Positions 26,377 through 52,685 of a stretch of DNA of 52,685 nt are shown piece by piece. The notes below the pieces were generated by a model. It was not told the origin of the DNA. It saw only the letters and a program-made list of their open reading frames with translations, and did not search any database. Positions within the stretch are counted from its first letter, which is position 1. Each line of letters opens with the position of its first letter. The stretch covers positions 1 through 52,685 of the forward strand of contig NZ_NXIB02000036.1 in the NCBI RefSeq assembly GCF_002412335.2. Direction: 5' to 3'. A program made the position numbers and the translations under genes. Source of the stretch: Tychonema bourrellyi FEM_GT703. GTDB lineage: Bacteria; Cyanobacteriota; Cyanobacteriia; Cyanobacteriales; Microcoleaceae.

Positions 26377-26415
26377 TCAGTAATGTCAGTTCAAGTAACT
26401 CTAGAGCTAAAAACC

Positions 26416-27339
26416 ATGATATTTATCAACCCAAAAACTGATTACGCCTTCAAAAAAATCTTCGGTTCTTCAGAAAGCAAAGATATTCTGATTAGCTTTC
26501 TGAATGCCTTGATTTATGACGGAAATCCCACTATCGAAGACTTAGAAATTATCAATCCGAACCTTCCTCCGAAAATTGAAGGATTGAAAGACAGTTATTT
26601 GGATGTAAAAGCCAAACTCCAGGATGGTACTTTAGTGATCATTGAAATGCAGGTACTCAACGTCGAATCTTTTGGCAAACGGGTTTTTTATAATGCAGCT
26701 AAGACTTATGCTTTTCAATTGCAAGCAGCACAAGCCTATCGACTACTGAAGCCAGTGATTGCTTTGACAATTACTGATTTTGAGATGTTTCCTAATAGTG
26801 AAGATTTTATCTCCAGATTTGTGTTAAAAGAAGTAGATAAAAACTTTACTTATCCTGAAAATGAGCTAGATTTAGTGTTTGTAGAGTTACCAAAGTTTAT
26901 GAAAGGAGAGGAGCAACTTGAAACCCTGGCAGATAAGTGGATTTATTTCATGAAAAATGCGAGAAGTCTGACATCAGTTCCTGAAATAATGGATAGTGTA
27001 CCGGAAATACATCAAGCTTTTGATATTGCGAATCAAGTCAAGTTAAGTCGTGAAGAAGTAGAAGAGTTTGACAGAAGAGAGCAGTTTATTTATGACCAAC
27101 AGGGAGCGATCATTAAGGCTGTTCGGGAAGGGATAGAACAAGGAATAGAACAAGGAATAGAACAAGGACGAGAACAAGGACGAGAAGAGGGAATAGAAGA
27201 GGGACGAGAAGAAGGGATGAAATTCGAGAAACTGGCGATCGCCCAAAGATTACTCTCACAGCTAGATAATATCACAATCAGCCAAGTTACCGGACTGAGT
27301 GTGGAAGAGGTGCAGAATTTGCGTGCAGCTAATTCCTAA
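26416..27339 (+). CDS. Rpn family recombination-promoting nuclease / PD-(D/E)XK transposase-like, copy 1
   Basis: A member of the Rpn/YhgA-like family (PD-(D/E)XK nuclease fold), here 307 aa. It starts MIFINPKTDYAFKKIFGSSESK, as usual for the family. The nuclease core motif is DVKAKLQDGTLVIIEMQV (about residues 73-90), where Asp and Glu-x-Gln are the expected metal ligands. The tail contains a charged 4-residue repeat tract (GIEQGIEQGREQGREEG, coded by 12-bp repeats), followed by a short helical end (ITISQVTGLSVEEVQNL). An upstream ATG at 26383 adds 11 residues. Copy 2 follows 41 bp downstream. Rpn proteins promote RecA-independent recombination in E. coli. Confidence 0.88.
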   Translation: MIFINPKTDYAFKKIFGSSESKDILISFLNALIYDGNPTIEDLEIINPNLPPKIEGLKDSYLDVKAKLQDGTLVIIEMQVLNVESFGKRVFYNAAKTYAFQLQAAQAYRLLKPVIALTITDFEMFPNSEDFISRFVLKEVDKNFTYPENELDLVFVELPKFMKGEEQLETLADKWIYFMKNARSLTSVPEIMDSVPEIHQAFDIANQVKLSREEVEEFDRREQFIYDQQGAIIKAVREGIEQGIEQGIEQGREQGREEGIEEGREEGMKFEKLAIAQRLLSQLDNITISQVTGLSVEEVQNLRAANS

Positions 27340-27379
27340 TACTGTCTTTAAATTGATGTAATTATACCAGGTCAAAACC

Positions 27380-28267
27380 ATGATATTTATCAACCCAAAA
27401 ACTGATTACGCCTTCAAAAAAATCTTCGGTTCTTCAGAAAGCAAAGATATTCTGATTAGCTTTCTGAATGCCTTGATTTATGACGGAAATCCCACTATCG
27501 AAGACTTAGAAATTATCAATCCGAACCTTCCTCCGAAAATTGAAGGATTGAAAGACAGTTATTTGGATGTAAAAGCCAAACTCCAGGATGGTACTTTAGT
27601 GATCATTGAAATGCAGGTACTCAACGTCGAATCTTTTGGCAAACGGGTTTTTTATAATGCAGCTAAGACTTATGCTTTTCAATTGCAAGCAGCACAAGCC
27701 TATCGACTACTGAAGCCAGTGATTGCTTTGACAATTACTGATTTTGAGATGTTTCCTAATAGTGAAGATTTTATCTCCAGATTTGTGTTAAAAGAAGTAG
27801 ATAAAAACTTTACTTATCCTGAAAATGAGCTAGATTTAGTGTTTGTAGAGTTACCAAAGTTTATGAAAGGAGAGGAGCAACTTGAAACCCTGGCAGATAA
27901 GTGGATTTATTTCATGAAAAATGCGAGAAGTCTGACATCAGTTCCTGAAATAATGGATAGTGTACCGGAAATACATCAAGCTTTTGATATTGCGAATCAA
28001 GTCAAGTTAAGTCGTGAAGAAGTAGAAGAGTTTGACAGAAGAGAGCAGTTTATTTACGATCAACAAGGAGCGATCATTAAGGCTTCGAGAGAAGCACGAG
28101 AAGAGGGACGAGAAGAAGGACGAGAAGAGGGACGAGAAGAGGGAATGCACTCCAAGGCGATCGCGATCGCCCAAAAATTACTCCCACAGCTAGATAATGC
28201 CACCATCAGCCAAGTTACGGGGCTGAGTATTGAGGATGTACAGAATCTGCGTGAAGCCAATTCCTAA
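27380..28267 (+). CDS. Rpn family nuclease, tandem copy 2
   Basis: A 295-aa duplicate of the preceding gene, with the same PD-(D/E)XK core. By eye the nucleotide sequence is identical from just before the ATG for about 677 bp (27380-28056 against 26416-27092). After that, scattered differences appear: the repeat tract is AREEGREEGREEGREEG instead of GIEQ/GREQ units, and the final 100 bp differ at many positions. The duplication unit is 964 bp. The sharp boundary between identical and diverged parts is discussed as a finding. Confidence 0.88.
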   Translation: MIFINPKTDYAFKKIFGSSESKDILISFLNALIYDGNPTIEDLEIINPNLPPKIEGLKDSYLDVKAKLQDGTLVIIEMQVLNVESFGKRVFYNAAKTYAFQLQAAQAYRLLKPVIALTITDFEMFPNSEDFISRFVLKEVDKNFTYPENELDLVFVELPKFMKGEEQLETLADKWIYFMKNARSLTSVPEIMDSVPEIHQAFDIANQVKLSREEVEEFDRREQFIYDQQGAIIKASREAREEGREEGREEGREEGMHSKAIAIAQKLLPQLDNATISQVTGLSIEDVQNLREANS

Positions 28268-40337: not shown

Positions 40338-41219
40338 ATGCAAGCAAATCCCAATACAGGAACACTTTACATCGTCGGAACCCCGATCGGCAACCTCGAA
40401 GACATGACATTTCGCGCCATCAAAATTTTGCAAGCAGCAGACTACATCGCCGCCGAAGATACCCGCCATACAGGGAAACTTTTGCATCACTTTCAAATCA
40501 AAACCCCCCAAATCAGCTATCACGAACACAACCGACATCAACGATTACCCGAATTAATCGACAAACTGCTTCTAGGAAAAAGTATAGCCCTTGTCACCGA
40601 TGCTGGAATGCCGGGAATTTCTGACCCCGGATACGAATTAGTCAAAGCTTGTGCTGATGCTAATATTAACATAATTCCCATTCCCGGTGCCTGTGCTTGT
40701 ATAGTCGGAATCAGTGCATCGGGATTACCCACAGACAGATTTGTGTTTGAAGGTTTCTTACCCGCGAAAGGTCAAGAACGCCAACTTAGTTTAGAAGCTT
40801 TGCAAATAGAATCCCGCACCATCATCTTATACGAATCTCCGCACCGATTGCGACAAACTTTACAAGATTTAGCAAATAGTCTGGGAAGCGACAGACAGAT
40901 TGTATTGGCCAGAGAGTTGACCAAGATGCACGAAGAGTTTTGGCGTGGTAGTATCGAAAGTGCGATCGAACTTTACACCACTCATGAACCAAAGGGAGAA
41001 TTTACCCTCATCATTGCCGGTATCCAAACAGATGCACCAATATTCTCCGAAGATGCAATCAAAGCCGAATTGCAAGCATTAATAGAAACAGGCGTAACTC
41101 GTTCCCAAGCCAGCCGCCAATTAGCCCAACAAACCTCCCTTCCCCGCCGCCAAATCTACCAACTCGCCCTGACAATAGGCGACAGCGAATCACTAGAACA
41201 ACCCTTAGATGACTTGTGA
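40338..41219 (+). CDS. rsmI: 16S rRNA (cytidine1402-2'-O)-methyltransferase
   Basis: SAM-dependent tetrapyrrole-methylase-fold enzyme that 2'-O-methylates C1402 in the ribosomal decoding centre. It shows GTLYIVGTPIGNLEDMTFRAI at the start (split reading), EDTRHTGKLL, the HEHN block, the SAM-binding ALVTDAGMPGISDPG (about residues 80-94), and the late GEFTLIIAG. The 293 aa length is normal. Start ATG at 40338; the 17 upstream residues in the longer frame derive from the repeat. Confidence 0.95.
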   Translation: MQANPNTGTLYIVGTPIGNLEDMTFRAIKILQAADYIAAEDTRHTGKLLHHFQIKTPQISYHEHNRHQRLPELIDKLLLGKSIALVTDAGMPGISDPGYELVKACADANINIIPIPGACACIVGISASGLPTDRFVFEGFLPAKGQERQLSLEALQIESRTIILYESPHRLRQTLQDLANSLGSDRQIVLARELTKMHEEFWRGSIESAIELYTTHEPKGEFTLIIAGIQTDAPIFSEDAIKAELQALIETGVTRSQASRQLAQQTSLPRRQIYQLALTIGDSESLEQPLDDL

Positions 41220-41287
41220 ATAACTCCCTCTCCCCTGCGCCCTCTGCGGTTAAATAAAAAAAACTAGATAATCACACTAAAAATTCT

Positions 41288-42511
41288 ATGGTACGCGGAA
41301 ACTACGATCGACAAAAACCATATTTAAGCAATCCCCAAATCAGCAAACCAATCGCCGAGATTTATGCAGACTTAGACGCCTTTAGCTGGGAGATATTCGA
41401 GGATCAAACCCACCGCTTCGATACCGTCAGTTTCTACGTCTTGATTCCCCCGCTATTTTACGAAGGAAAATTCATCAAAGGCATTTACTTCAGCGAAGCA
41501 GTAGAACTCATCAACAAACTATTTCCCCAACTTTCCTCAGTCTTTCATTCCTTTACCTATTCCCCCGGCGCTTCCTATTCCTGGGCTCCCGTAGCCGATG
41601 CTTATTCCAGCTTATATAAAAACCCACAACGGGATAAATGGTTTCGCGAAACTTATGCCGATCGCGCACATAAACCAATCATACCACTGCAAGACACAGA
41701 CTTTATCAACGAATACCTGATTTCCCCGCGAAATGTCCCAGAAAAAGACATCGACTTGCTAGCCGTAGCCCGCATCTCCGAAGAAAAAAACCTGCCAACA
41801 ATCGCCAAAGCCTTAAAAGTTTACCGCCAAAAATACCCGCAAAAACCGATAAAATTAACAGTAGTAACCGGACATGACTTTGATGCTAGCAACCTAAAAA
41901 CTCTCGACGAATATGCCTTAAACGAATGGCGACAAATCGAGACAATTTTAACCAATCCCTCGGACTACATCAACTTACTGCCGCGAGTTGATTACTATCA
42001 AGAAATCCCTAACTATTATTCGCGGGCGCAAGCATTCGTCCTCGGTTCCCTCCTCGAAGGAAAAAATCGCGGCATCACCGAAGCTATGAGTTGCAACGTT
42101 CCAGTAATTTGCTTCCAAGAATTCAACCAATACGCCAGAGGTGACTCGCCTGTTTTCCCGGAAGGTGCCGGGCTTTATGCTAAATTCGATCCAGAATCTC
42201 TCGCCGATACTATATATACAGTATTGGAAAATCGGACAGAATTTAAACCGCGATATCAGTATTTAAAGCATTGCGGGCGGAAGAACTTTTTCAATACTTG
42301 CATTGACAGTTTTCCTTACTACCAGCACAATATTCCAGACTACAAAGCTGGAGATGCGATTAACAATTTGTGGCTGGATTTAGCAGTTCAGCAAAATTAT
42401 CAAGTTAGCTTGAATAGCTTTTTGTATGGAGGTTCACATCTGTCGCACCTGCGCGGGATAAATACGATTCAGCAACATCTCGGCGAACTCACAAAGTTTA
42501 TAGCTGAGTAG
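41288..42511 (+). CDS. GT4-like glycosyltransferase
   Basis: A 407-aa GT-B-fold glycosyltransferase. The C-terminal nucleotide-sugar domain shows LLAVARISEEKNLPTIAKAL (about residues 157-176) and the E-x7-E donor-binding block SLLEGKNRGITEAMSCNVPVI (read around LLEGKNRGITEAM). The N-terminal half contains no signal or membrane helix, so it is cytoplasmic. Donor and acceptor are unknown; surface polysaccharide synthesis is the usual role. It follows rsmI by 68 bp. Hairpins after its stop (GTCCGCGAAGGCGGAC at 42539) may terminate it. Confidence 0.82.
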   Translation: MVRGNYDRQKPYLSNPQISKPIAEIYADLDAFSWEIFEDQTHRFDTVSFYVLIPPLFYEGKFIKGIYFSEAVELINKLFPQLSSVFHSFTYSPGASYSWAPVADAYSSLYKNPQRDKWFRETYADRAHKPIIPLQDTDFINEYLISPRNVPEKDIDLLAVARISEEKNLPTIAKALKVYRQKYPQKPIKLTVVTGHDFDASNLKTLDEYALNEWRQIETILTNPSDYINLLPRVDYYQEIPNYYSRAQAFVLGSLLEGKNRGITEAMSCNVPVICFQEFNQYARGDSPVFPEGAGLYAKFDPESLADTIYTVLENRTEFKPRYQYLKHCGRKNFFNTCIDSFPYYQHNIPDYKAGDAINNLWLDLAVQQNYQVSLNSFLYGGSHLSHLRGINTIQQHLGELTKFIAE

Positions 42512-42538
42512 GGCTTAAATACTGCGTTTATTCTTGAG

Positions 42539-42554
42539 TCCGCGAAGGCGGACT
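42539..42554. terminator. hairpin after the glycosyltransferase gene
   Basis: Perfect GTCCGC-GAAG-GCGGAC hairpin followed by TTCGTTT. It is followed by a second small palindrome (GCGGTTTCAACCGC). It may be a terminator or part of another repeat family. Confidence 0.4.
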
Positions 42555-42625
42555 TCGTTTGTATAGTTGCGGTTTCAACCGCCGAACAATTCAGGGGGTA
42601 GCAAACCGAATTTTGGCAGAAATAA

Positions 42626-42670
42626 GTAATTTACGATACAGTCACAACCACATTTATGGTATTATAAAAT
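42626..42670 (+). promoter_or_regulatory. NtcA-type promoter upstream of hpxO
   Basis: GTA-AATTTACG-A register gives a perfect GTA-N8-TAC at 42626-42639, the binding motif of the cyanobacterial nitrogen regulator NtcA. TATTAT (42660-42665) and TAAAAT (42665-42670) match the TA-N3-T -10 element at spacings of 20 and 25 bp, bracketing the usual 22-23. It lies 133 bp before the hpxO start codon. About a dozen chance GTA-N8-TAC matches are expected in a window of this size, so placement and pathway logic carry the argument. Confidence 0.55.
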
Positions 42671-42771
42671 ATAGTTAGTTTCAAGGTTGGGACAGACCGG
42701 AAACAATAGTTAAGATTCTAAATTGTTATAAATTCTTGAAATAAGATGTCATTCAGCAGGAGAAACACAGA

Positions 42772-43932
42772 ATGCACGACTTGAAAGTTGTCATCATCGG
42801 TGCGGGAATTGGTGGCTTAACTGCGGGAATTGCCCTACAACAAGCGGGCTATGAAGTTGAAATTTACGATCGCGTTAAAGAACTGCGCCCCGCCGGAGCA
42901 GGCATTTCCCTGTGGTCAAACGGTGTCAAAGTTCTCAACCGCCTCGGCTTAGGCGAAAACATGGCAAAAATCGGCGGTCAAATGGAGCGCATGGAATACC
43001 GCACCAAAACCGGCGAACTCCTGAATGACATCGATTTAATGCCGTTAATTGAACAAGTCGGTCAGCGCCCCTATCCCGTAGCCCGCCGAGATTTGCAACA
43101 TATGTTGCTAGCAGCATTTAAGGGAGAAGTCAAGCTCGATCGCAAATGTATTGCCGTCGAAGAAGACGCAACCAAAGTGACAGCAATCTTTGAAAACGGA
43201 GACAAAGCCCAGGGCGATTTGTTAGTGGCGGCTGACGGCGTGCGTTCTATTTTGCGTACCTATGTATTGGGTCACGAAGTAGAGCCGAAATACGGCGGTT
43301 ATATCAACTGGAACGGGTTAGTTCCGGCTGCGGAAGAACTCGCACCGAAAAACACTTGGGCGATATATGTTGGCGAACACAAACGCGCGTCCCTGATGCC
43401 AGTTGCGGGCGATCGATTTTACTTTTTCTTAGATGTTCCCTTGCCCAAAGGTACACCCGCCAATCCCGACAATTACAAAGCCGAACTTAAACAATACTTT
43501 AAAGATTGGGCCGAACCAGTGCAATTGTTGATAGATAGATTAGATCCCGCAGCAGTGGCGAGGCCGGAAATTCATGACGTAGGTCCGATCGACCGCTTCG
43601 TTCGTGGTAAAGTTGCTTTGCTGGGAGATTCTGCCCACGCTACTTGCCCGGATCTCGGACAAGGAGGCTGTCAGGCGATGGAAGACGGGCTGGTACTCAC
43701 CAACTACCTTTTGAGTACGAATTTGGGCGTAGAATACGCGCTCAAACGTTACGAAACCGAGCGCAAACAGCGGGCGAATGCAGTTGTCGAAAAAGCCCGA
43801 CAGCGCGCGGAACAAATACATGGTAAAGATCCAGTTGTAACAGAAAAATGGTATGCACAATTGGCCTATGAAAAGCCTACTGATGTCACCGATGCGATCG
43901 CGAAAGTCATCTCAGCCGGCCCGTTACACTAA
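42772..43932 (+). CDS. hpxO: FAD-dependent urate hydroxylase
   Basis: Flavoprotein monooxygenase that converts urate to 5-hydroxyisourate using NADH and O2, replacing uricase. It has the FAD-binding GAGIGG (residues 10-15), LVAADGVRS, and LLGDSAHATCPDLGQGG motifs. Over its length it follows the Klebsiella HpxO pattern (ISLWSNGVKVL, RFYFFLDVPLP, HGKDPVVTEKWY, final SAGPLH). The urate-binding residues known in Klebsiella HpxO (Arg204, Tyr216, Asp293) correspond to Arg205, Tyr217 and Asp294 here. Start has GGAGA 10 bases upstream. It is first in a run hpxO-uraH-Rieske-uraD, and an NtcA-type site lies upstream. Confidence 0.92.
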   Translation: MHDLKVVIIGAGIGGLTAGIALQQAGYEVEIYDRVKELRPAGAGISLWSNGVKVLNRLGLGENMAKIGGQMERMEYRTKTGELLNDIDLMPLIEQVGQRPYPVARRDLQHMLLAAFKGEVKLDRKCIAVEEDATKVTAIFENGDKAQGDLLVAADGVRSILRTYVLGHEVEPKYGGYINWNGLVPAAEELAPKNTWAIYVGEHKRASLMPVAGDRFYFFLDVPLPKGTPANPDNYKAELKQYFKDWAEPVQLLIDRLDPAAVARPEIHDVGPIDRFVRGKVALLGDSAHATCPDLGQGGCQAMEDGLVLTNYLLSTNLGVEYALKRYETERKQRANAVVEKARQRAEQIHGKDPVVTEKWYAQLAYEKPTDVTDAIAKVISAGPLH

Positions 43933-43943
43933 TAGTTGCTAGG

Positions 43944-43964
43944 ACACAGCAGTGCTGTGTCCCT
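43944..43964. repeat. GGACACAGCA palindrome
   Basis: A short perfect palindrome, GGACACAGCA-G-TGCTGTGTCC, followed by CTAC. A close relative is near 17430-17451. It lies between hpxO and uraH. Confidence 0.7.
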
Positions 43965-44029
43965 ACGGATACCGGGTTTATTTAAATTGCAGCAAAATAG
44001 ATCTAAAAATAACATTTAACCTTGCAAAA

Positions 44030-44392
44030 ATGTCAGGAAAACTCACTACTCACGTTCTCGATACAGCCCGCGGCTGTGCGGCTGCAAATATGTCGATCGC
44101 CCTGCAATCAATTGACCCAAAATCCGGCGCAAAAACGCTGTTAAAAACTGTCACAACTAATGCTGACGGTCGCACCGCAGATCCTTTACTATCAGACAGC
44201 GAACTCAAACCAGGAGTTTACGAATTAGTCTTTTCTGTGGGCGAATACTTCGCGCAATCCGCCGAAAATTTGCCAGAACCACCGTTTTTAAACAGCGTTC
44301 CGATTCAGTTCGGTATCGCCGATATCACCGCACACTATCACGTACCTTTGCTAGTTTCACCTTGGTCTTACAGCACTTATCGCGGTAGTTGA
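44030..44392 (+). CDS. uraH: 5-hydroxyisourate hydrolase
   Basis: Transthyretin-like enzyme that hydrolyses 5-hydroxyisourate to OHCU, the second step of urate breakdown. It has the N-terminal [14 protein letters not shown] with the catalytic His, [12 protein letters not shown] with the catalytic Arg, [17 protein letters not shown] with the third His, and the diagnostic C-terminal YRGS. From the ATG at 44030 it has 120 residues, normal for the family. The frame is open 26 codons further up, but those residues do not fit the family. It is 97 bp downstream of hpxO. Confidence 0.95.
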
Positions 44393-44415
44393 ATAACTCA
44401 TATCTTGCATCTCAA

Positions 44416-44480
44416 GAACAGGCAAGATGCCTGTTCCACAAAGAATAAATTTCTTGTGGGGTGGGCATCCTGCCCGCCCA
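44416..44480. repeat. 'GGCAAGATGCCTGTTCCAC' repeat, single copy
   Basis: One copy of the family seen at 2691 and 46323, between uraH and the Rieske oxygenase gene. It includes the GGGCATCCTGCCCGCCC half. Confidence 0.75.
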
Positions 44481-44559
44481 TAAAAACCTTAATGAGAATG
44501 GTGCAAGATGTCAGATAAAAGGAAGATTGGTTTAGTTATTATTTAGGATAGAAGAGATT

Positions 44560-45579
44560 ATGTTAGTTACGAAGCAAGCTGTTTTCAAACGATTCTGGTA
44601 TCCAGTGATTCCCACAGTTGAATTGTCCGGCGAACCAAAAGCGTTTGAACTATTAGGAGAACCCATCGTTTTGTGGCTGGATTCTGAAGGCAAACCTGCC
44701 GCAGTTGAAGACCGTTGCTGTCACCGCACGGCTAAACTTTCCCTCGGAAAAGTTGTCGGCGGCAACATTTGCTGTGCCTACCACGGCTGGACATTTAACT
44801 CATCTGGAACCTGCGTCCGCGTTCCGCAACAGCAAAATGACACAATTTCTCCCAACTACAAAGTAAAAGCATACCGCACGTGCGATCGCTACGGATACGT
44901 TTGGGTTTGTCTGGGAGAACCACTGACAGACATTCCCGAAATTCCCGAAGCTGCGGACTCGAATTACCGCCAAATTCACGAATTTTACGAACGCTGGAAT
45001 TGTGCGGGATTGCGAGTAATGGAAAATGAATTAGACATGGCTCATCCTACTTTTGTACATACCACAACTTTCGGCAGCGAAGCACATCTTACACCGGATG
45101 TAATGGAATTTCAAGAAACAGAATGGGAACTACACTATCACAGCGTTTTAGGTGTCGTCAATCCCGCCCAGCAACAGCAAAACTTAAAAATCGAGGAACA
45201 GGAAACCGTGCGGACAATCGATGGAATTTGGTTTATGCCATTTACCGTCAAACTGCGGATTGTTTACCCAAACGGACTCGTTCATATTATAGTCAATACC
45301 ATGACTCCGATTAACGATTCCGCATCTCAAATGGTGCAATTTTGCCTCCGCAACGACACCGAAACTGATGCCAAAACCAGCGATATTATTGCCTTCGATC
45401 GCGCCGTTACATTAGAAGACAAACGCATTTTAGAAACAACAGATTGGGATGTTCCTCTCGACATCAACCAAGAACAACATATGCTGACAGACAAGCCGGG
45501 AATTATCATGCGCCGCAAAATTGCAGCACTCCTAAAAGCCCACGGCGAAGTCGAACAAACTAAAGTCATTAGTCATTAG
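44560..45579 (+). CDS. Rieske non-haem iron oxygenase, alpha subunit (HpxD-like)
   Basis: A 339-aa aromatic-ring-hydroxylating-type oxygenase. The Rieske [2Fe-2S] ligands are Cys53/His55 (DRCCHRTAK) and Cys72/His75 (CCAYHGW). The mononuclear iron site is the Asp159-x2-His162-x4-His167 motif in ELDMAHPTFVH. In Klebsiella a Rieske protein (HpxD) with a reductase (HpxE) oxidises hypoxanthine upstream of HpxO. The position here between uraH and uraD suggests a related purine-hydroxylating role. No reductase gene is in the window, so electrons would come from ferredoxin or an unlinked reductase. Other substrates remain possible. Confidence 0.82.
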   Translation: MLVTKQAVFKRFWYPVIPTVELSGEPKAFELLGEPIVLWLDSEGKPAAVEDRCCHRTAKLSLGKVVGGNICCAYHGWTFNSSGTCVRVPQQQNDTISPNYKVKAYRTCDRYGYVWVCLGEPLTDIPEIPEAADSNYRQIHEFYERWNCAGLRVMENELDMAHPTFVHTTTFGSEAHLTPDVMEFQETEWELHYHSVLGVVNPAQQQQNLKIEEQETVRTIDGIWFMPFTVKLRIVYPNGLVHIIVNTMTPINDSASQMVQFCLRNDTETDAKTSDIIAFDRAVTLEDKRILETTDWDVPLDINQEQHMLTDKPGIIMRRKIAALLKAHGEVEQTKVISH

Positions 45580-45593
45580 TCCATAATACATAG

Positions 45594-45656
45594 GCCGGGG
45601 CGGGTTTTTGAAATTGTCGGTTTTTGGCGACTATTGTTGGTGAACCCGCCCCTACA
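45594..45656. repeat. 'GGGGCGGGTTT / AACCCGCCCC' palindromic repeat
   Basis: Arms CCGGGGCGGGTTT and GAACCCGCCCCTAC, just after the Rieske gene. A half copy of the CGAAGG palindrome follows at 45731-45768. Confidence 0.8.
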
Positions 45657-45821
45657 GGAATCATAGTCAATCAACCGCACATAATACAACTTCACCAGTA
45701 GAAGATTATTTACTTCTTCCCTCTTCTTCCCTCTTCTTCCTTCGTGCCCTTCGCGCCTTCGCGGTTCAATCAAACTAAAAAGTAAAACAAAACTAATTAA
45801 AATTAATCAACCCGATTCAAA

Positions 45822-46322
45822 ATGCCATACTCTTTAGTTGAACTCAACCAACTCAGCCAGGAAGAATTTACACAAGCTTTGGGCGCGATTTTTGAACACA
45901 CGCCCGACATCGCCCGTCGCACTTGGGACGATCGCCCTTTTGCATCCACAGCCGATTTGCACGCTAAAATGGTAACAGTCGTCAGCGCCATGACTGAAGC
46001 CGAAAAATTAGCTTTAATTCAAGCCCACCCGGATTTAGGAAGCAAAGCAAAAATGGCAGCAGCATCGGTTAGCGAACAAGCTGGTGCGGGTTTGGATAAA
46101 CTTTCTGTTGAAGAGTTCGATCGCTTTCAATACCTGAATCGATCGTACCGCGAAAAGTTTGATTTCCCCTTCATTGTGGCGGTAAAAAATCACACTAAAA
46201 CCAGCATTCTCGCAGCATTTAAACAGCGCCTCGACAATTCCTGGGAAACAGAAATGCAGCAAGCTGTAGCTGAAATTTGCGAAATTGCCCGCTTTCGCCT
46301 TGAGTCAGCAATTCAAAATTAA
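45822..46322 (+). CDS. uraD: 2-oxo-4-hydroxy-4-carboxy-5-ureidoimidazoline (OHCU) decarboxylase
   Basis: Third enzyme of urate breakdown; it decarboxylates OHCU to (S)-allantoin. It has the LNQLSQEEFTQALGAIFEHTPDIA opening (read in part), the catalytic His69 in QAHPDLGSKA, the EQAGAGLDKL segment, and FPFIVAVKNHTKTSIL near the end, all typical of UraD. The 166 aa length is normal. It is the last of the three core pathway genes. A long tandem repeat array starts at its stop codon. Confidence 0.95.
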   Translation: MPYSLVELNQLSQEEFTQALGAIFEHTPDIARRTWDDRPFASTADLHAKMVTVVSAMTEAEKLALIQAHPDLGSKAKMAAASVSEQAGAGLDKLSVEEFDRFQYLNRSYREKFDFPFIVAVKNHTKTSILAAFKQRLDNSWETEMQQAVAEICEIARFRLESAIQN

Positions 46323-46770
46323 TCGGGCGGGCAGGATGCCCACCCCACAAGAAAATTAAATCTTTGTGGAACAGGCATCTTGCCTGTTGCTGACGGGCAG
46401 GATGCCCAACCCACAAGAAAATTAAATCTTTGTGGAACAGGCATCTTGCCTGTTGCTAACGGGCAGGATGCCCAACCCACAAGAAAATTAAATCTTTGTG
46501 GAACAGGCATCTTGCCTGTTGCTAACGGGCAGGATGCCCAACCCACAAGAAAATTAAATCTTTGTGGAACAGGCATCTTGCCTGTTGCTAACGGGCAGGA
46601 TGCCCAACCCACAAGAAAATTAAATCTTTGTGGAACAGGCATCTTGCCTGTTGCTAACGGGCAGGATGCCCAACCCACAAGAAAATTAAATCTTTGTGGA
46701 ACAGGCATCTTGCCTGTTGCTAACGGGCGGGCAGGATGCCCACCCCACGCAGGATGCCCACCCACAAGAA
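46323..46770. repeat. 66-bp tandem repeat array (five perfect copies plus variants)
   Basis: Five consecutive 66-bp units with no visible difference occupy 46395-46724, with a variant unit before and partial units after. Each contains two small palindromes (GGGCAGGATGCCC and CAGGCATCTTGCCTG). The unit is a multiple of three with few stops, so it opens long artificial frames on both strands (46319-46789 minus, 46380-46805 plus). Same family as 2691-2845 and 44416-44480. Confidence 0.92.
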
Positions 46771-46966
46771 ATTCAATCTTTGCCCCCATGCCTAAGTCCG
46801 ATTAGAGTGCCTTCTACAATATCACCCGATCGGACGATCCTTTTCGCTAAAATTGTTATACAATAGTATCATCAGGCACAGAAAAAGATTCGGACATACC
46901 AAATAAAGCTGGTATGGTGACAGGTTTCGATGTGTCTCCCAGAAAAACCATCTTGGAGGCAAAGTT

Positions 46967-47122
46967 ATGACATTCTTCAATCGCCAACTTACCAAAAAAT
47001 CCCCCGCGCCAGTACCTGTAGAAAACATCAAACAGGTCGATCGGGAAGAACCTTTAGGCCATATGCACGGCAATTTTCGGCACTGGGTTTGGTTGAATCC
47101 ATCCCATCAGCGCGCCCAGTAA
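46967..47122 (+). CDS. possible 51-aa protein or truncated gene
   Basis: A short frame with an excellent Shine-Dalgarno (TTGGAGGC, 7-8 bases before the ATG) and an upstream TATACAAT stretch at about 46856-46863. The product starts MTFFNRQLTKKSPAPVPVE, continues IKQVDREEPLGHMHGNFRHWVW and ends about 12 residues later, overlapping the end of the ABC permease gene tail-to-tail by 16 bp. The start signals look like those of a real gene, while the end may be accidental, so a gene truncated by a deletion or by the permease operon is plausible. No family recognised. Confidence 0.4.
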   Translation: MTFFNRQLTKKSPAPVPVENIKQVDREEPLGHMHGNFRHWVWLNPSHQRAQ

Positions 47123-47877
47123 ATCAGGTACTTCTCCGCCGCCGCAAACAAGCCATAAAGCACGGTTCCCATCACTGCCAAAACCATCAATCCTGCAAAA
47201 CCTAAAGGCACGTCAAAGTTAGAACTCGCGGTGACAATTAAGTAGCCGAGGCCTTTGTTTGATGCTACTGTTTCCGAAATTACAGCGCCGACAAAGGCGA
47301 GGGAAATTGCTACTTTTAGGGATGCAAAGACGTAGGGTAAGGTGTGGGGGAACCCGACTTTTTGGAAGATTTCAATTTGCGATGCACCTAGCGATCGCAT
47401 CACATCTTTCATCTCAGGTTCCACTGTATCTAACCCTAAAGCTACGTTAACGGCGATCGGGAAAAATGCCAACAAAAAAGCAGTGAGTATTGCAGGCACT
47501 GTGCCGATGCCAAACCACAGCGCAAACAGTGGCACTAACGCTACTTTCGGTACAGTATTGAACCCCACTAATAGCGGGTACAGAACTATATATGCAATCC
47601 GCGAATAGCCGATCGCAAACCCCAGCACTACGCCAGCGATAATGGCGAGGATGAAACCCGCTAAAGTTGTAAACAAAGTTTGGCCGCTGTTTTCGATCAG
47701 TGCCTGACTTTGGTTGAAAGTAGCGGCCAGAATCGCAGAAGGTGCGGGCAAGTTATAGGGAGGAATTTTAAACAAAAATACCAGAGTTTCCCACACCAGG
47801 AACAGCAAAATTGTCGCAGCAATTGGCATCACAATACTTGCTGTTTTTGAGCGTGCAAATTTCTCTAAATTATCCAT
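47107..47877 (-). CDS. ABC transporter permease (SsuC/TauC-type)
   Basis: A 256-aa inner-membrane permease of the nitrate/sulfonate/taurine/NMT1 importer class, with six hydrophobic helices. The EAA-type loop is GLDTVEPEMKDVMRSLGASQIEIFQKVGFPHTLPYVF (central part RSLGASQIEIFQKV, about residues 160-173), the contact to the ATPase. It is downstream of the ATPase gene with a 16-bp gap, so they form an operon. Its end overlaps a small frame on the opposite strand. The substrate is not defined by sequence; the neighbouring urate genes suggest a purine or ureide. Confidence 0.9.
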   Translation of the reverse strand: MDNLEKFARSKTASIVMPIAATILLFLVWETLVFLFKIPPYNLPAPSAILAATFNQSQALIENSGQTLFTTLAGFILAIIAGVVLGFAIGYSRIAYIVLYPLLVGFNTVPKVALVPLFALWFGIGTVPAILTAFLLAFFPIAVNVALGLDTVEPEMKDVMRSLGASQIEIFQKVGFPHTLPYVFASLKVAISLAFVGAVISETVASNKGLGYLIVTASSNFDVPLGFAGLMVLAVMGTVLYGLFAAAEKYLIYWAR

Positions 47878-47893
47878 TGCTTTCTCGTGTTTT

Positions 47894-48706
47894 TTAATTG
47901 CGGTGAATGTGGCGGCGCAGTTCTGCTACAATGTGATTGAAATCATCCGACATCATCATATCTAGATTGGTAGGACGGGGGAGATTGACTTTTACTTTGT
48001 AGACGATCGAACTCGGACGCGGGCCCATCACATAAACCGTATCCGACAAGAAAACAGCCTCCCGCAAATCGTGAGTGATCAGGATGCAAACGCACTTCAC
48101 TCGCATCCACAACTCTTGCAACATCACCCACATTTCCTCGCGGGTGAAAGCATCTAACGCGCCAAAAGGTTCGTCTAACAGCAGGATTTCCGGTTGGTGA
48201 ATTAACCCGCGACACAGGGAAGCCCGCTGTCTCATTCCTCCCGACAATTGCCAGGGAAACTGTTTCTGAAAGTCTTGCAATCCGACTGTAGCTAACAATT
48301 CTTGGGCTTGGCGCACAAACATTTCCCGCCGCTTGGGATCTTTTGATTCTCGCTTGTACGGCTGCACTACTTCCAGTGGCAAAAGTACGTTGTCGAGGGT
48401 ATTTCGCCAAGGCAAAAGCACGGGATTTTGAAAGGCGATGCCGACATTTTTCAGCGGTTTGGTAATCTTTTTGTCGCGAATCCGAATTTCGCCGATCGGC
48501 GCTGGAGATAGCCCGGAAACCATCCTTAAGATAGATGTTTTACCGCAGCCGCTCGGCCCCACAAAGGATACAAATTCTCCTTGGGCGATCGACAGTGAAA
48601 TCTCGTCAATAATTCGCCTGGGTTGGCCGTCAACTTCATATTGTAAACCCACCCGATCGAACTCTAAAAGAGTCGGTTCTTGGGTGCCGATCGCATTTGT
48701 TAGCAT
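47894..48706 (-). CDS. ABC transporter ATP-binding protein (SsuB/TauB-type)
   Basis: The ATPase of the importer. It has Walker A GPSGCGKTSIL, the Q-loop in GIAFQNPVLLPW, the signature LSGGMRQRASL and Walker B EILLLDEPFGALDAF, with the His switch in LITHDLREAV. From the ATG at 48706 it has 270 residues, the usual size. The frame is open to a TTG at 48775, but the upstream residues are not typical. It is the first gene of the minus-strand ATPase-permease pair and faces the substrate-binding protein gene across a 380-bp region with an NtcA-type site. Confidence 0.92.
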   Translation of the reverse strand: MLTNAIGTQEPTLLEFDRVGLQYEVDGQPRRIIDEISLSIAQGEFVSFVGPSGCGKTSILRMVSGLSPAPIGEIRIRDKKITKPLKNVGIAFQNPVLLPWRNTLDNVLLPLEVVQPYKRESKDPKRREMFVRQAQELLATVGLQDFQKQFPWQLSGGMRQRASLCRGLIHQPEILLLDEPFGALDAFTREEMWVMLQELWMRVKCVCILITHDLREAVFLSDTVYVMGPRPSSIVYKVKVNLPRPTNLDMMMSDDFNHIVAELRRHIHRN

Positions 48707-48827
48707 TTTAGGCTGTACCACAGTTAGTCTGCCTCCTTTATTTAGTAGAATCTCATCCGTATCCTGTATGCACAAATTTTTTTAAATTTATATACTGTAT
48801 TTATTCTTGATAATTTAGAATCGTGCT

Positions 48828-48841
48828 GTATCCGAAAATAC
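48828..48841. promoter_or_regulatory. NtcA-type site between the two transporter arms
   Basis: GTATCCGAAAATAC is a perfect GTA-N8-TAC match in the divergent region between the ABC ATPase and the substrate-binding protein. In the minus direction a TACAGT follows at 28 bp, longer than the usual 22-23, so the promoter match is weaker than at hpxO. Being palindromic, it could act on either arm. Confidence 0.4.
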
Positions 48842-49085
48842 AAACTTTTGCACGATCGCTCAAGCAAGCGAGCGCAACATCAAGTTGAGGCGCAAATATC
48901 AACTTGTCTATTTGATTGTTGTTTGACATAAAACCAAAAACTGTGTTTGTCTATACAGTCAGCCAAGTAATTTAAGCATACGGTATACAAGAAACCAGAG
49001 CGCTGCTTAACTTTGAGGCGAAATCCGCAGAAATTGGCGATCGGTTTTTGATTTGGTTTGTTGTCCAAATAGCAAGCATTTTTAT

Positions 49086-50204
49086 ATGAACAATACATGG
49101 TTACGACGATCGCTATCTCTAGTTCTGATTGCAACTCCAGTTATCCTCAGTAGCTGCCAATCTCAGCCGAATGCCACAACTACCCCTGCATCCGGGGGAG
49201 CAACTGCAACCACAGCGGCAGACACGTCACAGAAACGCACCATCAAAGTCAATCCATCTTGGCTATTGCAAGGTGACAATGCACCGCTGACAATGGCGAT
49301 CGACAAAGGCTATTTCCCAGCCGAAGGATTGGATGTCAAAATCGAGCGGGGGTACGGTTCCTCTGATACAATTACCAAAGTTGCAGCAGGCCAATTCGAG
49401 ATCGGATTTGGCGATATTTACTCGATGATGGAGTTCAACGCCAAGAATCCCAACGATCCAGTAGTCGCAGTTGCAGTACCTTACAATCGATCGGCATTTT
49501 CAATAGTCACCCTCAAGTCGAGCAACATTGCAGATCCTAAAGCATTAGCCGGCAAAAAGCTAGGAGCACCCGCAGGAGATGCACCGCGCAAATTGTGGCC
49601 GGTATTTGCCCAAAAAGTGGGCGTAGGGGCCGACTCGGTAGAGTGGATTACAATGGAACCGAAGCTGCGCGAAACATTATTAATTAAGGGCGATGTGGAT
49701 GCAGTCAGCGGCTTTGCAACCACGATAATTCCTGCATTAGAAAAATCAGGCAAAAAGCCGGAAGATATGAATGTATTCTACTACACCGATAACGGTTTAG
49801 ATTTGTACGGAAATGCGATCGTGGTCAAAAAAGCATTTTTAGACAAAAATCCCGAAGTAGTAAAAGGCTTTTTGAGAGCTTATTTTAAAGGGCTCCAAGA
49901 TACCTTAAAAGATCCGACAGCCGGATTGGAATCGGTGGTGAAAGCTGGAGATAGCTTGATGGACAAAAATGCGGAAAAGCGTCGCCTGCAAATTGCTTTA
50001 GAAAGGCTATATATAACTCCAGAAGTTGAAAAAGTTGGCTTGGGCGGAGTCGATCCAGTTCGTCTGGAAGCGACAGCAAAACAAGTAGCAGAAGTCTTGA
50101 AAATTCCAGCTCCCCCAGTTGATAAGATAGTTGATGAGAGCTATTTACCTCCGAAAGAGCAGCGGGCTTTACCTCCTGCGGGCGATCGCAAACCGCTGAC
50201 TTAA
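49086..50204 (+). CDS. ABC transporter substrate-binding lipoprotein (NMT1/SsuA-like)
   Basis: A 372-aa periplasmic binding protein anchored as a lipoprotein: MNNTWLRRSLSLVLIATP leads to the lipobox VILSSC (Cys24). The mature part is a type II binding fold of the NMT1/THI5/SsuA class (GDNAPLTMAIDKGYFPAEGLDV, KVAAGQFEIGFGDIYSM, GKKLGAPAGDAPRKLWP). It pairs with the permease/ATPase operon transcribed away from it. Start ATG at 49086; the longer frame from 49053 would put residues before a normal signal peptide. The ligand is unknown; urate, allantoin or a purine is inferred from neighbours. Confidence 0.92.
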   Translation: MNNTWLRRSLSLVLIATPVILSSCQSQPNATTTPASGGATATTAADTSQKRTIKVNPSWLLQGDNAPLTMAIDKGYFPAEGLDVKIERGYGSSDTITKVAAGQFEIGFGDIYSMMEFNAKNPNDPVVAVAVPYNRSAFSIVTLKSSNIADPKALAGKKLGAPAGDAPRKLWPVFAQKVGVGADSVEWITMEPKLRETLLIKGDVDAVSGFATTIIPALEKSGKKPEDMNVFYYTDNGLDLYGNAIVVKKAFLDKNPEVVKGFLRAYFKGLQDTLKDPTAGLESVVKAGDSLMDKNAEKRRLQIALERLYITPEVEKVGLGGVDPVRLEATAKQVAEVLKIPAPPVDKIVDESYLPPKEQRALPPAGDRKPLT

Positions 50205-50239
50205 AAGCGTATTCCAGGTTTATGAAATGTAGGGACACC

Positions 50240-50405
50240 GCACCCTGCCCATTGGTGTCTACTTGAGCATGAAAACCCTTGTATCTCTCGTTTATAGCCG
50301 AGCCTAGATCCCCCTAAATCCCCCTTAAGAAGGGGGACTTTGATCGGAATCTTGTCCCCCCCTTCTTAAGGGGGGCTAGGGGGGATCAAAATCTAAGAGT
50401 CAAAC
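50240..50405. mobile_element. MITE-like element, copy 3 (right end missing)
   Basis: Matches 5221-5435 from CCTGCCCATTGGTG through the CCCCCTTAAGAAGGGGG palindrome to GTCAAAC, ending 43 bp before the porin start codon, so it separates the porin from the binding-protein gene. More diverged than copy 2. Confidence 0.75.
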
Positions 50406-50448
50406 AAAGTCCACTCCAAGCGGACTAAATAATTACGGTGTGAGGATC

Positions 50449-52470
50449 ATGTCTAAATCTTTGTTTTTCCAAATCCTGCTGACAGCAACGCCAGCCTTTT
50501 TTTGTATTAATTTGCTGCATTGTCCTGCAATCTCTGCTGCGGAAAATTCCGTTTTGGAAACCGAGGAAGCAACAGCCGAGATAGCAGAGTCACCTATAGC
50601 AGAATTGGCGGCATCACCAATTGACACACAGACAAATCCTGCGGTAACAAATGAAAAACCAGCCGCCATTGCATCAGAAAATCAACTAGAAACAAACCCG
50701 AAAGAAGTCGCAGCAGTTTCTGAATCAAGCGAAGTAAAATCTACAGAAACAGCAGCCGAAGCATCCAACGAATCCAGCGTATTGGCCGAGTCAATCCAAA
50801 CACCGGAAAATCCAGTAAATATCGCCGACATCCAACAGGTAGATACCCTGGAAACAAACGATGCTTCCAAAATCGAGCAAGTCACCTCAGTTTCCCAACT
50901 CAGCGATGTCAAACCCACAGATTGGGCATTTCAAGCACTGCAATCCTTAGTTGAACGCTACGGATGTATCGCAGGATATCCCGACGGTACCTATCGCGGA
51001 AATCGAGCCATGACACGCTACGAATTCGCCGCCGGCTTAAATGCGTGTCTAGATAAAGTTGCGGAATTAATCAAAGCCGGAGGTTCTAATTTCGTCAAAA
51101 AAGAAGATTTAGAAAAAGTTCAAAAACTGCAAGAACAATTTGCAGCCGAACTAGCAACCCTGCGCGGTAGAGTCGATGTATTAGAAGCTCGCACAGCGGA
51201 GCTAGAATCCAATCAATTCTCGACCACAACTAAACTCAATGGTACGGTTTGGTTCAACCTGACATCAGCATTTCCCACAGGCGATATCACCGCCGAACGC
51301 AGCCGCACTACCCCAAATAGCGCCTTTGCTCCTCCAACTCGCGATGCCAACAATCGACCAACTCGCGTCGAGCGGGGTACGCCTGAAACTACTTTTAGCT
51401 ACTACAGTTTTTTGACGCTAAATACTTCGTTTACTGGCAAAGATTCCCTGGTAACTCAGTTAGTTTTTGGTAACGGCAATTCGCCTGCTAACGAACTGGT
51501 GTCGGCGGGTTTTTATAACTCTTGGGGTACGCCGTTTTTAGACCAAACTGGCGTACCGACGGCGAATACTGTGGGAATTCGCGAGATGTCTTACACGTTT
51601 CCAGTGGGAGATAAAGTACAAGTTGCGATCGGACCGCGCTTGAATTATTATCGATATTTTGATGGCAATCGCTTCACGTTTTTTATGAAGGGAGCAACCA
51701 GTTTTAACTCGAACGGAAGTACACTGTTAAATGCAGTCGATCGCGGATCTGGCGCTGCTGTAACTTGGCAAGTTGCTAAACCACTCAGGTTTACGGCTGC
51801 TTATATGGCTGAAAATACCGAATTTTTGAATCCTGCGGTATATAATACGGCTAGCAATCCCAGCGATGGTTTGTTCAACAGTTCCAACACAATCACAGCA
51901 CAGTTGGAATACGCCCCCAGCAACTCTTTCAATCTGCGGCTGATTTACGCGCGATCGAGCCTTAAACCTTATAATGGATTCATCGGCGGAGCAGTGGGCG
52001 AACCGCTGCCTTACGGCTATGCAGATGACGGTTTTGGGGGGAAAGTTCGAGACTCTGGTGCTGATACTTTTGTGGTTAATTTTGATTGGTTGCTGGGTCG
52101 AAATTTTGGTTTGTTCGGGCGGTATTCCTACGGTCAACTTGAGGTAAATCCGGTAAATCGCGATCGCTCTGGCGGAGATATTAAGGTACAATCTTTGCAA
52201 GTCGGCATGGGATTTCCCGATATTGGCAAAAAAGGGGCGCTGGGCGTACTTTCCTTTGTGATTCCCCAGGATTACATATCGGGGCGCAGATTTTTGCTCT
52301 CCGGCGGCGGAAATGGAGGGACTCAGTACGAGATAGAGGGCTCGTACTACTACCCGATTACGAATAATATTGCGATCGTCCCGGCATTTTATGCTATCTT
52401 TAATGCCAACAATTTTGATGGCAACCCCACGGTGTTTGTGGGAAATCTTCGCACTCAGTTTAGCTTTTAA
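50449..52470 (+). CDS. SLH/OprB-type outer-membrane porin ('iron uptake porin' family)
   Basis: A 673-aa outer-membrane protein with the typical cyanobacterial layout: signal peptide (SLFFQILLTATPAFF), a long low-complexity Glu/Ala/Ser-rich region (about 35-150), one SLH domain (VKPTDWAFQALQSLVERYG and NRAMTRYEFAAGLNACLDK, about 160-210), a coiled coil (LQEQFAAELATLRGRVDVLEAR), and a C-terminal beta barrel ending in NLRTQFSF with the terminal Phe of porins. Cyanobacterial relatives allow passage of inorganic ions and other solutes; the substrate here is unknown. A GTG nine bases upstream (50440) is an alternative start. Confidence 0.9.
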   Translation: MSKSLFFQILLTATPAFFCINLLHCPAISAAENSVLETEEATAEIAESPIAELAASPIDTQTNPAVTNEKPAAIASENQLETNPKEVAAVSESSEVKSTETAAEASNESSVLAESIQTPENPVNIADIQQVDTLETNDASKIEQVTSVSQLSDVKPTDWAFQALQSLVERYGCIAGYPDGTYRGNRAMTRYEFAAGLNACLDKVAELIKAGGSNFVKKEDLEKVQKLQEQFAAELATLRGRVDVLEARTAELESNQFSTTTKLNGTVWFNLTSAFPTGDITAERSRTTPNSAFAPPTRDANNRPTRVERGTPETTFSYYSFLTLNTSFTGKDSLVTQLVFGNGNSPANELVSAGFYNSWGTPFLDQTGVPTANTVGIREMSYTFPVGDKVQVAIGPRLNYYRYFDGNRFTFFMKGATSFNSNGSTLLNAVDRGSGAAVTWQVAKPLRFTAAYMAENTEFLNPAVYNTASNPSDGLFNSSNTITAQLEYAPSNSFNLRLIYARSSLKPYNGFIGGAVGEPLPYGYADDGFGGKVRDSGADTFVVNFDWLLGRNFGLFGRYSYGQLEVNPVNRDRSGGDIKVQSLQVGMGFPDIGKKGALGVLSFVIPQDYISGRRFLLSGGGNGGTQYEIEGSYYYPITNNIAIVPAFYAIFNANNFDGNPTVFVGNLRTQFSF

Positions 52471-52487
52471 GATGCTTGTTGGTGGGG

Positions 52488-52546
52488 TGGGGGCGGGTTT
52501 ATGAGATTATGAATATGAGTCAAATATTATCGGTGAACCCGCCCCT
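52488..52546. repeat. 'GGGGCGGGTTT / AACCCGCCCC' palindromic repeat
   Basis: Arms TGGGGGCGGGTTTA and GTGAACCCGCCCC, 17 bp after the porin stop codon; it could terminate that transcript. Confidence 0.8.
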
Positions 52547-52600
52547 TGTATCTTAAAAGAGTGAATCAGTCGATCGCCACGTCATAGATTTAATCATACC

Positions 52601-52685
52601 GACAATCAGGCGATCGAGCCGACAATCAGGCGATCGTACCGATCATCAGGCGATCGTACCGATCATCAGGCGATCGTACCGACAA
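52601..52685. repeat. 20-bp tandem repeat with GGCGATCG core, running off the window
   Basis: Four 20-bp units starting at 52601, 52621, 52641 and 52661 (GACAATCAGGCGATCGTACC with small variants GATC for GACA and GAGCC for GTACC) and the start of a fifth at 52681. Each contains GGCGATCG, close to the HIP1 octamer. The array continues beyond the window, so its length is unknown. Confidence 0.9.

Follow-up and report, generated by a model that had tools for sequence, protein, structure and literature searches.

Where does a cyanobacterium that carries the genes for turning urate into allantoin get its urate? The question is raised by contig NZ_NXIB02000036.1 of Tychonema bourrellyi FEM_GT703, one whole contig of 52,685 bases (hereafter the window) from a 5.08-Mb cyanobacterial draft genome that is 92.5% complete, whose closest named relatives as judged by HpxO belong to Microcoleus (94–95% identity). 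In most organisms the step from xanthine to urate is carried out by a molybdenum enzyme. No PF02738 subunit of xanthine dehydrogenase (XDH) was found in this genome (0 matches, at the completeness given), and a Rieske/VanA_C oxygenase gene sits between uraH and uraD, downstream of hpxO. The explanation that we consider likely is a purine-nitrogen module with its own importer, in which the Rieske protein would be another xanthine hydroxylase, perhaps driven by ferredoxin. The pathway part is of a known kind, and the new element would be the Rieske oxygenase as another molybdenum-free route into urate. A preliminary description of this DNA, made from the sequence by itself, had noted correctly that the oxygenase is interleaved with the urate genes and had treated it as an interloper; we regard it as the most informative member of the set, with a distribution complementary to that of XDH.

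Concerning the three steps from urate to allantoin, the earlier assignment of hpxO, uraH and uraD held, all three products scoring above curated cut-offs close to where they had been placed. HpxO is, by family assignment, a predicted flavin adenine dinucleotide (FAD)-dependent urate hydroxylase. Residues 4–385 of its 386 align with structure 3rp6, listed as a flavoprotein monooxygenase, which we take to be Klebsiella HpxO. It matches 3rp6 at the residues corresponding to R204 and Y216, presumably the active-site Arg and Tyr of the Klebsiella enzyme, while 3rp8 differs at the Arg. Allantoinase and the later steps do lie outside the window, as had been said. Contig C248 of the same genome encodes a PuuE allantoinase (544 bits, cut-off 424.6), adjoined by an M20 amidohydrolase whose best model is allantoate amidohydrolase (420.3 bits, cut-off 399) and by an allophanate-hydrolase-C/GGACT-like gene. 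The search of the whole genome found neither XDH nor uricase. In relatives a GntR gene, puuE, the GGACT-like gene and the M20 gene come after the porin gene (all four in locus L011, the first two or three in L005–L007). The choice of HpxO instead of uricase had been called notable; HpxO occurs in 25 genomes of a phylum sample of 386 drawn evenly from the cyanobacteria (three of the seven from the window's genus), and the choice is not notable, since uricase was found in none of 68 HpxO-bearing cyanobacterial genomes searched. Gene order was compared across 80 hpxO loci, one of them (L081) from a Polyangiaceae metagenome-assembled genome and some on short contigs; a UraH cluster is present in 51, a UraD cluster in 44 and a porin cluster in 18. 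The order hpxO-uraH-Rieske-uraD is kept in six of ten Microcoleus-group loci, the remaining four being one without the Rieske gene (L007), one that is different (L064) and two that end too early (L008 and L010). Either uraH or uraD is also near hpxO in many other cyanobacteria.

The distribution of the Rieske oxygenase is complementary to that of XDH. In the phylum sample its orthologs (at least 52% identity) were detected in 18 genomes, 15 of them HpxO-bearing (p = 7e-18); below these, the next matches reach 34% over the full length or, where partial, 39% at most. The comparison with XDH was made in the 68 HpxO-bearing genomes, 19 from the phylum sample and 49 behind the hpxO loci with six recognised duplicates left out, counting window-type Rieske proteins at 60% identity or more and XDH as PF02738 at 250 bits or more. 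The Rieske gene is present in 33 of these genomes (one copy, in G430, being cut by a contig end), XDH in 31 and both in two (p = 4e-11), and 31 of the 33 Rieske-bearing genomes are without XDH. As grounds for the name XDH, TIGR02965 (XdhB) is above its cut-off in both separate-subunit high scorers tested; two weaker PF02738 matches are closest to PaoC aldehyde oxidoreductase, below the PaoC cut-off, and a fused protein of the type in L033, counted as XDH, reaches no cut-off and sits among purine genes. In a second set of genomes XDH is present in 1 of 24 with the Rieske gene and in 20 of 25 others; once the six duplicates are removed, the figures are 1 of 22 and 17 of 21 (p = 2e-7). Completeness is known (92.5–100%) for 19 genomes, and among these XDH is in 1 of 9 with the Rieske gene and in 9 of 10 others (p = 0.001). 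The pattern also survived pairing on a tree built from the 68 HpxO sequences and used in place of a species tree, on which the Rieske state changes 18 times: with 14 independent pairs, a mean of 11.1 differed in opposite ways, 0.4 in the same way and 2.5 showed no difference (median p = 0.001, range 0.0005–0.012).

A third oxidase completes the picture. Six genomes have neither the window-type Rieske nor XDH, and five of them (G388, G423, G427, G185 and G434) carry an ortholog of Klebsiella HpxD (at least 55% identity to the protein of L140, the next matches being at 37%), which points to the same step. Window-type Rieske and HpxD occur together in none of the 68. The HpxD ortholog is beside a guanine deaminase gene in G388, G185 and G289 (a duplicate of G423) and beside hpxO in G427; no purine gene is near it in the 12 kb examined in G434 (L169). 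Specifically, guaD adjoins HpxD in L140, L154 and L155, and among the orthologs at loci L140, L154, L155 and L141, all from genomes without XDH, three have guanine deaminase and one the hpxO cluster as neighbour. Purine genes next to HpxD are absent from the stretch examined in XDH-bearing G170, G431, G409, G413 and G412, a stretch that is short for two of them. The gene order of the window (hpxO-uraH-uraD, importer, porin) recurs in Microcoleus sp. LEGE 07076 (L007), with no Rieske gene between uraH and uraD. A search of its genome returned no window-type Rieske and no XDH, and on another contig (L140) its HpxD ortholog is beside guanine deaminase. In the HpxO tree LEGE 07076 falls within the Rieske-bearing Microcoleus, at modest support (95/69). 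It would represent a natural swap of the window-type Rieske for HpxD. Linkage is consistent with such a role. The Rieske gene is within 10 kb of hpxO, uraH, uraD or guaD in 23 of the 33 genomes; guaD adjoins it in L135 and L178 and is at most 5.2 kb away in L179 and L070. The slot of the window Rieske, between uraH and uraD, is taken in L033 by an XDH-like gene.

Several observations weigh against this reading. The 60% cut was chosen after the first sample, and then applied unchanged to the second. At 50% or more the anticorrelation is weaker (XDH in 10 of 41 Rieske-bearing against 21 of 27 others, p = 2e-5; 11 pairs on the HpxO tree, median p = 0.03, range 0.008–0.29), because all eight genomes added have XDH; three of these (G411, G409 and G011, with Rieske copies of 54–55%) also have HpxD. 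Nor does the 60% cut follow the Rieske tree exactly, as G008 and G425, counted as Rieske-bearing, fall in a nested clade. That clade, partly of tandem copies, is represented in eight cyanobacterial genomes, six with XDH, and only L062 is near purine genes in the stretches examined, so its function may have shifted. Two genomes (G008 and G416) have both the Rieske gene and XDH, one metagenome-assembled genome of small contigs (G408) shows none of the three oxidases, and HpxD and XDH occur together in eight. In 10 of the 33 genomes the Rieske gene had no purine gene in its vicinity; the ten include G405 and G414, whose neighbourhoods lay outside the comparison, and G393 and G407, for which it covered only about 4 kb and a 6.2-kb contig. 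The completeness of the 49 locus-derived genomes is not stated, so some absences may be gaps. Finally, no guanine deaminase over the cut-off was found in the window's own genome (best 125 bits of 375), so that xanthine would need an outside source or another enzyme, unless a deaminase gene falls in the portion that the draft genome lacks.

Turning to the importer, the preliminary description was right that all three parts of an ABC (ATP-binding cassette) importer are present and follow the urate genes. The permease and ATPase genes are on the minus strand and divergent from the lipoprotein gene, and therefore the importer genes do not form one operon with hpxO-uraD. The gene list of that description was likewise sound as far as it went, every named gene being present, and passed over a 51-amino-acid open reading frame (ORF), the porin gene and a 66-bp repeat array. 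The importer might carry a non-purine such as nitrate, taurine/sulfonate or a thiamin precursor and be placed here by chance, a possibility that we take seriously even if we doubt it. It belongs to the same family as taurine, nitrate and thiamin-precursor importers; the taurine, sulfonate and nitrate NCBIfam cut-offs are reached by neither the permease nor the binding protein, nor by the ATPase, for which none of the best 25 of 186 families is above cut-off, and the best profile match of the lipoprotein among solved structures is the pyrimidine (thiamin precursor) binding protein 3ix1. Its gene is away from purine genes in six of the eight phylum-sample genomes that have it (9.5–14 kb examined), and two of the eight are without HpxO. 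In two of them (G005 and G008; loci L126 and L131) the relatives, at 52–54% identity, have as neighbours another FAD monooxygenase and a protein that is VOC-like by our reading of its sequence. Against chance placement, six of these eight genomes are among the 25 with HpxO (p = 1e-6), and a Rieske protein of at least 50% identity is encoded in seven (p = 1e-9). In Microcoleus and Pseudanabaena the importer and the porin are repeatedly neighbours of purine genes, and a small ORF keeps its position there. The importer is so placed in five Microcoleus-group sequences (the window, L005, L006, L007 and L009), in L063 (Microcoleus sp. FACHB-1515) and in the Pseudanabaena loci L116 and L128. On plasmid ABRG53c of Pseudanabaena sp. 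ABRG5-3 (L116/L183) it lies between uraH and 8-oxoguanine deaminase in the single run hpxO-uraD-puuE-AtzD-GGCT-uraH-porin-importer-8-oxoguanine deaminase-Zn hydrolase-GntR. Elsewhere, NMT1-type and tauA-type genes follow xanthine/urate riboswitches (PMC7373994). Among the 80 hpxO loci an NCS2 permease cluster is present in 21 and the importer in five, none with both in the flanks examined, numbers too few to interpret.

The 51-amino-acid ORF is preceded by GGAGG and runs into the 3' end of the permease gene. Each of the five importer-bearing Microcoleus-group sequences keeps the frame open, and two Pseudanabaena loci have a short relative in the corresponding position (49 codons annotated in L116); a motif search of all the other loci collected gave no further relative. 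No Pfam match was obtained. The nonsynonymous rate (dN) is below the synonymous rate (dS) in 10 of 10 pairs, with ratios of 0.32–0.75, a modest sign that the frame may be under selection. Positions 46901–46972 form a conserved leader ahead of it; an Avashort-thermometer match to this leader is weak (23.7 bits, gathering threshold 88, E = 0.7) and was set aside. In L011 and L013 the importer is absent and a permease stub of 24–25 codons is left before the porin. The purine run of ABRG53c includes a gene of the cyanuric-acid amidohydrolase family (NF052395, 478 bits, cut-off 360), whose cluster is also present in hpxO loci L037, L038 and L043.

As regards the identity of the Rieske protein, C53, H55, C72, H75, D159, H162 and H167, which we take to be the ligands of the cluster (the first four) and of the iron (the last three), are invariant in 10 aligned orthologs. 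It was considered as HpxD itself and this was rejected, as it has 28% identity to Klebsiella HpxD and falls in a separate clade. In the Rieske tree the window and HpxD groups are on long branches (support 100/100); the tree took in only matches to the two queries, window Rieske and HpxD, with no third Rieske family, and so gives no verdict on sister groups or on separate origins of the function. The function may have arisen twice, or the two clades may have split from one such enzyme. No HpxE-like reductase gene is in the window cluster, and an HpxE query against 136 loci gave, besides Klebsiella, one weak match (L048, 24%); with no reductase gene nearby, electrons would probably come from ferredoxin. 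The best-scoring solved structures by profile are NdmA (a methylxanthine demethylase), SxtDIOX/SxtT and NdmB. NdmA, SxtDIOX and HpxD score about equally against the window protein, so xanthine is not nameable from sequence alone. Two AlphaFold models, from 10 and 6 sequences, were poor (mean predicted local distance difference test scores of 48.7 and 42.1).

These structural matches leave room for a second explanation, which we nevertheless consider quite unlikely: the Rieske protein would be a purine N-demethylase like NdmA/NdmB, the module would consume methylxanthines or methylated nucleobases, and HpxO would act on methylurates like TmuM. NdmA and NdmB are two Rieske enzymes whose genes are adjacent, and the nested clade consists partly of tandem Rieske pairs. 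In caffeine C-8 oxidation, TmuM is described as similar to HpxO (PMC4408171). The match to NdmA does not discriminate, however, because Klebsiella HpxD likewise has SxtT and NdmA as its best-scoring solved structures; the window HpxO is well above the HpxO cut-off, and demethylation leaves unexplained both the alternation with XDH and HpxD and the place beside guanine deaminase. A third explanation, that the Rieske protein carries out another step (on hypoxanthine or adenine only, or on a later hydantoin) and that the absence of XDH reflects lineage history, draws on substrate specificity not being readable from sequence and on the genomes above with both genes or with no oxidase, and is improbable given that pairing on the HpxO tree leaves the anticorrelation standing and that HpxD fills five of the six genomes with neither gene.

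Within the wider Rieske family, tandem pairs of window-clade genes (52–57%) are found in XDH-bearing genomes (L125, L127 and L117) and are possibly methylpurine demethylases; the pair of L125 adjoins another NMT1-type ABC system and a GntR-like gene. On a Variovorax plasmid (NZ_CP070344; L113, a betaproteobacterium) a 46% Rieske relative is divergent beside a 36% relative of the binding protein; ten reading frames there, searched against NCBIfam at E = 1e-15, gave no named purine gene, and the locus was not used as evidence. In the open-access literature (titles and abstract openings), no Rieske xanthine oxidation in cyanobacteria and no cluster of this kind was among the matches listed.

Regulation of the cluster was also examined. 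GTAN8TAC is the NtcA consensus, and it occurs 11 times in the window against 5 expected, a number matched in 1 of 100 shuffles. Two of the copies occupy positions expected of an NtcA site, one at 42626–42639 ahead of hpxO and one at 48828–48841 between the ATPase and lipoprotein genes. The box upstream of hpxO is followed, about 20–23 bp downstream, by TATTAT/TATAAAAT. All 10 Microcoleus-group loci compared have a box in the 300 bp that precede hpxO, and the one between the ATPase and lipoprotein genes is kept in five of five aligned sequences with a varying spacer. Of 67 loci outside Microcoleus, 6 have one, which is close to chance (2.3 on average in shuffles, 7 at most); among all 77 loci with enough upstream DNA, 16 have one (3.2 on average in shuffles, 11 at most). 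Nitrogen control of the cluster is plausible from motif evidence. GTATAC is present in the interval between the ATPase and lipoprotein genes in 3, 3, 2 and 2 copies in L005, L006, L007 and L009 and once in the window; an operator called from the window alone was not above chance. The NMT1-motif (xanthine/urate) riboswitch had no match at E up to 5 in 41000–52685.

The layout of the region is given in Table 1. The true start of uraH is probably the ATG at 44030, rather than the GTG at 43952 where the ORF opens. Elsewhere on the contig, a 20-bp tandem array occupies 52593–52685 at the contig end, where the assembly breaks, and two near-identical tandem ORFs (318 and 295 amino acids) at 26383–28267 differ in C-terminal repeats of the EQGREQG/EEGREEG type.

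Table 1. Features of the hpxO-importer region of the window (OHCU, 2-oxo-4-hydroxy-4-carboxy-5-ureidoimidazoline).
Feature	Position	Strand	Basis or remark
NtcA-type box GTAATTTACGATAC	42626..42639	+	5' of hpxO; its first base, 42626, is where the preliminary description began
hpxO, predicted FAD-dependent urate hydroxylase	42772..43932	+	NF033623, 612.7 bits, cut-off 500
uraH, predicted 5-hydroxyisourate hydrolase	44030..44392	+	TIGR02962, 128.7 bits, cut-off 87.45
Rieske oxygenase, candidate molybdenum-independent xanthine hydroxylase	44560..45579	+	Pfam Rieske and VanA_C
uraD, predicted OHCU decarboxylase	45822..46322	+	TIGR03164, 197.5 bits, cut-off 96.25
66-bp tandem repeat array, 6.1 copies, 99% alike, in the uraD-importer gap	46328..46728	.	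Repeat scan
Small ORF, 51 amino acids (MTFFNRQ...HWVWLNPSHQRAQ)	46967..47122	+	Convergent with the permease gene
ABC importer permease	47107..47877	-	PF00528; no NCBIfam cut-off reached
ABC importer ATPase	47894..48775	-	PF00005; nearest NCBIfam models of taurine/SaoA/nitrate type
CTGTATACAG-like palindromes, possible GntR-family operator, weak in window	48764..48990	.	GTATAC copies in relatives
NtcA-type box GTAN8TAC, ATPase-lipoprotein intergenic	48828..48841	-	Motif match
Substrate-binding lipoprotein of importer (NMT1/SsuA family)	49086..50204	+	PF09084, 130.8 bits; ORF opens at TTG 49053
OprB/iron-uptake-type porin with SLH domain	50440..52470	+	PF04966, NF033921

Taken as a purine-nitrogen module, the locus would work as follows. 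The porin and the NMT1-type importer would bring in an oxopurine. The Rieske monooxygenase, as its distribution and linkage suggest, would hydroxylate xanthine, and possibly hypoxanthine, to urate in place of molybdenum XDH, probably with electrons from ferredoxin. By family assignment HpxO would then convert urate to 5-hydroxyisourate, UraH this to OHCU and UraD the latter to (S)-allantoin, and PuuE and the allantoate-amidohydrolase-type enzyme encoded on the other contig would carry the route onward; when nitrogen is short, NtcA is the probable activator of hpxO and the importer. In a wider scenario, which may well hold although we stop short of calling it probable, cyanobacteria would have recruited a second Rieske clade, separately from HpxD, as a molybdenum-free xanthine hydroxylase running on photosynthetic ferredoxin, with many exchanges with XDH and HpxD, and in Microcoleus it would work together with an NtcA-controlled oxopurine importer that has the conserved 51-amino-acid protein as its own. 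If true, this would mean a molybdenum-free, perhaps light-linked use of purine nitrogen in cyanobacteria, would account for the 37 HpxO-bearing genomes, out of 68, in which no XDH was found, and would give a function to a gene family that is now without a specific name. The three-way exchange, in which XDH, HpxD or the window-type Rieske stands in for the others, would illustrate non-orthologous gene replacement well. A direct prediction is that growth on xanthine would not be stopped by tungstate, and the importer and the small protein are testable parts of nucleobase scavenging.

Among the closest known systems are the hpx genes of Klebsiella (HpxDE, HpxO, UraH and UraD); both sets combine a flavin urate hydroxylase and a Rieske oxygenase with nearby uraH and uraD. 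The Klebsiella record annotates HpxD as "molybdenum cofactor-independent xanthine hydroxylase subunit", and hpxDE oxidise hypoxanthine and xanthine, according to PMC7373994. The two differ in that Klebsiella has an NCS2 symporter beside hpxO and the HpxE reductase, whereas the window has an ABC importer with a porin and lacks such a reductase gene in the cluster, and in the clade of the Rieske protein. NdmA and NdmB are Rieske enzymes with purine ligands that remove N-methyl groups (PMC4408171); unlike them, the cyanobacterial Rieske gene tracks the absence of XDH and also, in several genomes, guanine deaminase. An ABC transporter is likewise associated with the nitrogen-harvesting purine genes of SAR11, whose gene list has XDH and the PuuD urate oxidase (PMC11698098) where the window has the Rieske protein and HpxO. 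Operons of the NMT1-motif riboswitch bring together NMT1-type proteins, TauA-type transporters, hpxD-like dioxygenases and purine deaminases (PMC7373994), and differ from the window in the riboswitch itself. Finally, reasoning from presence and absence, of the kind applied here to the three-way exchange, is what led to the PuuD urate oxidase, according to PMC4562309.

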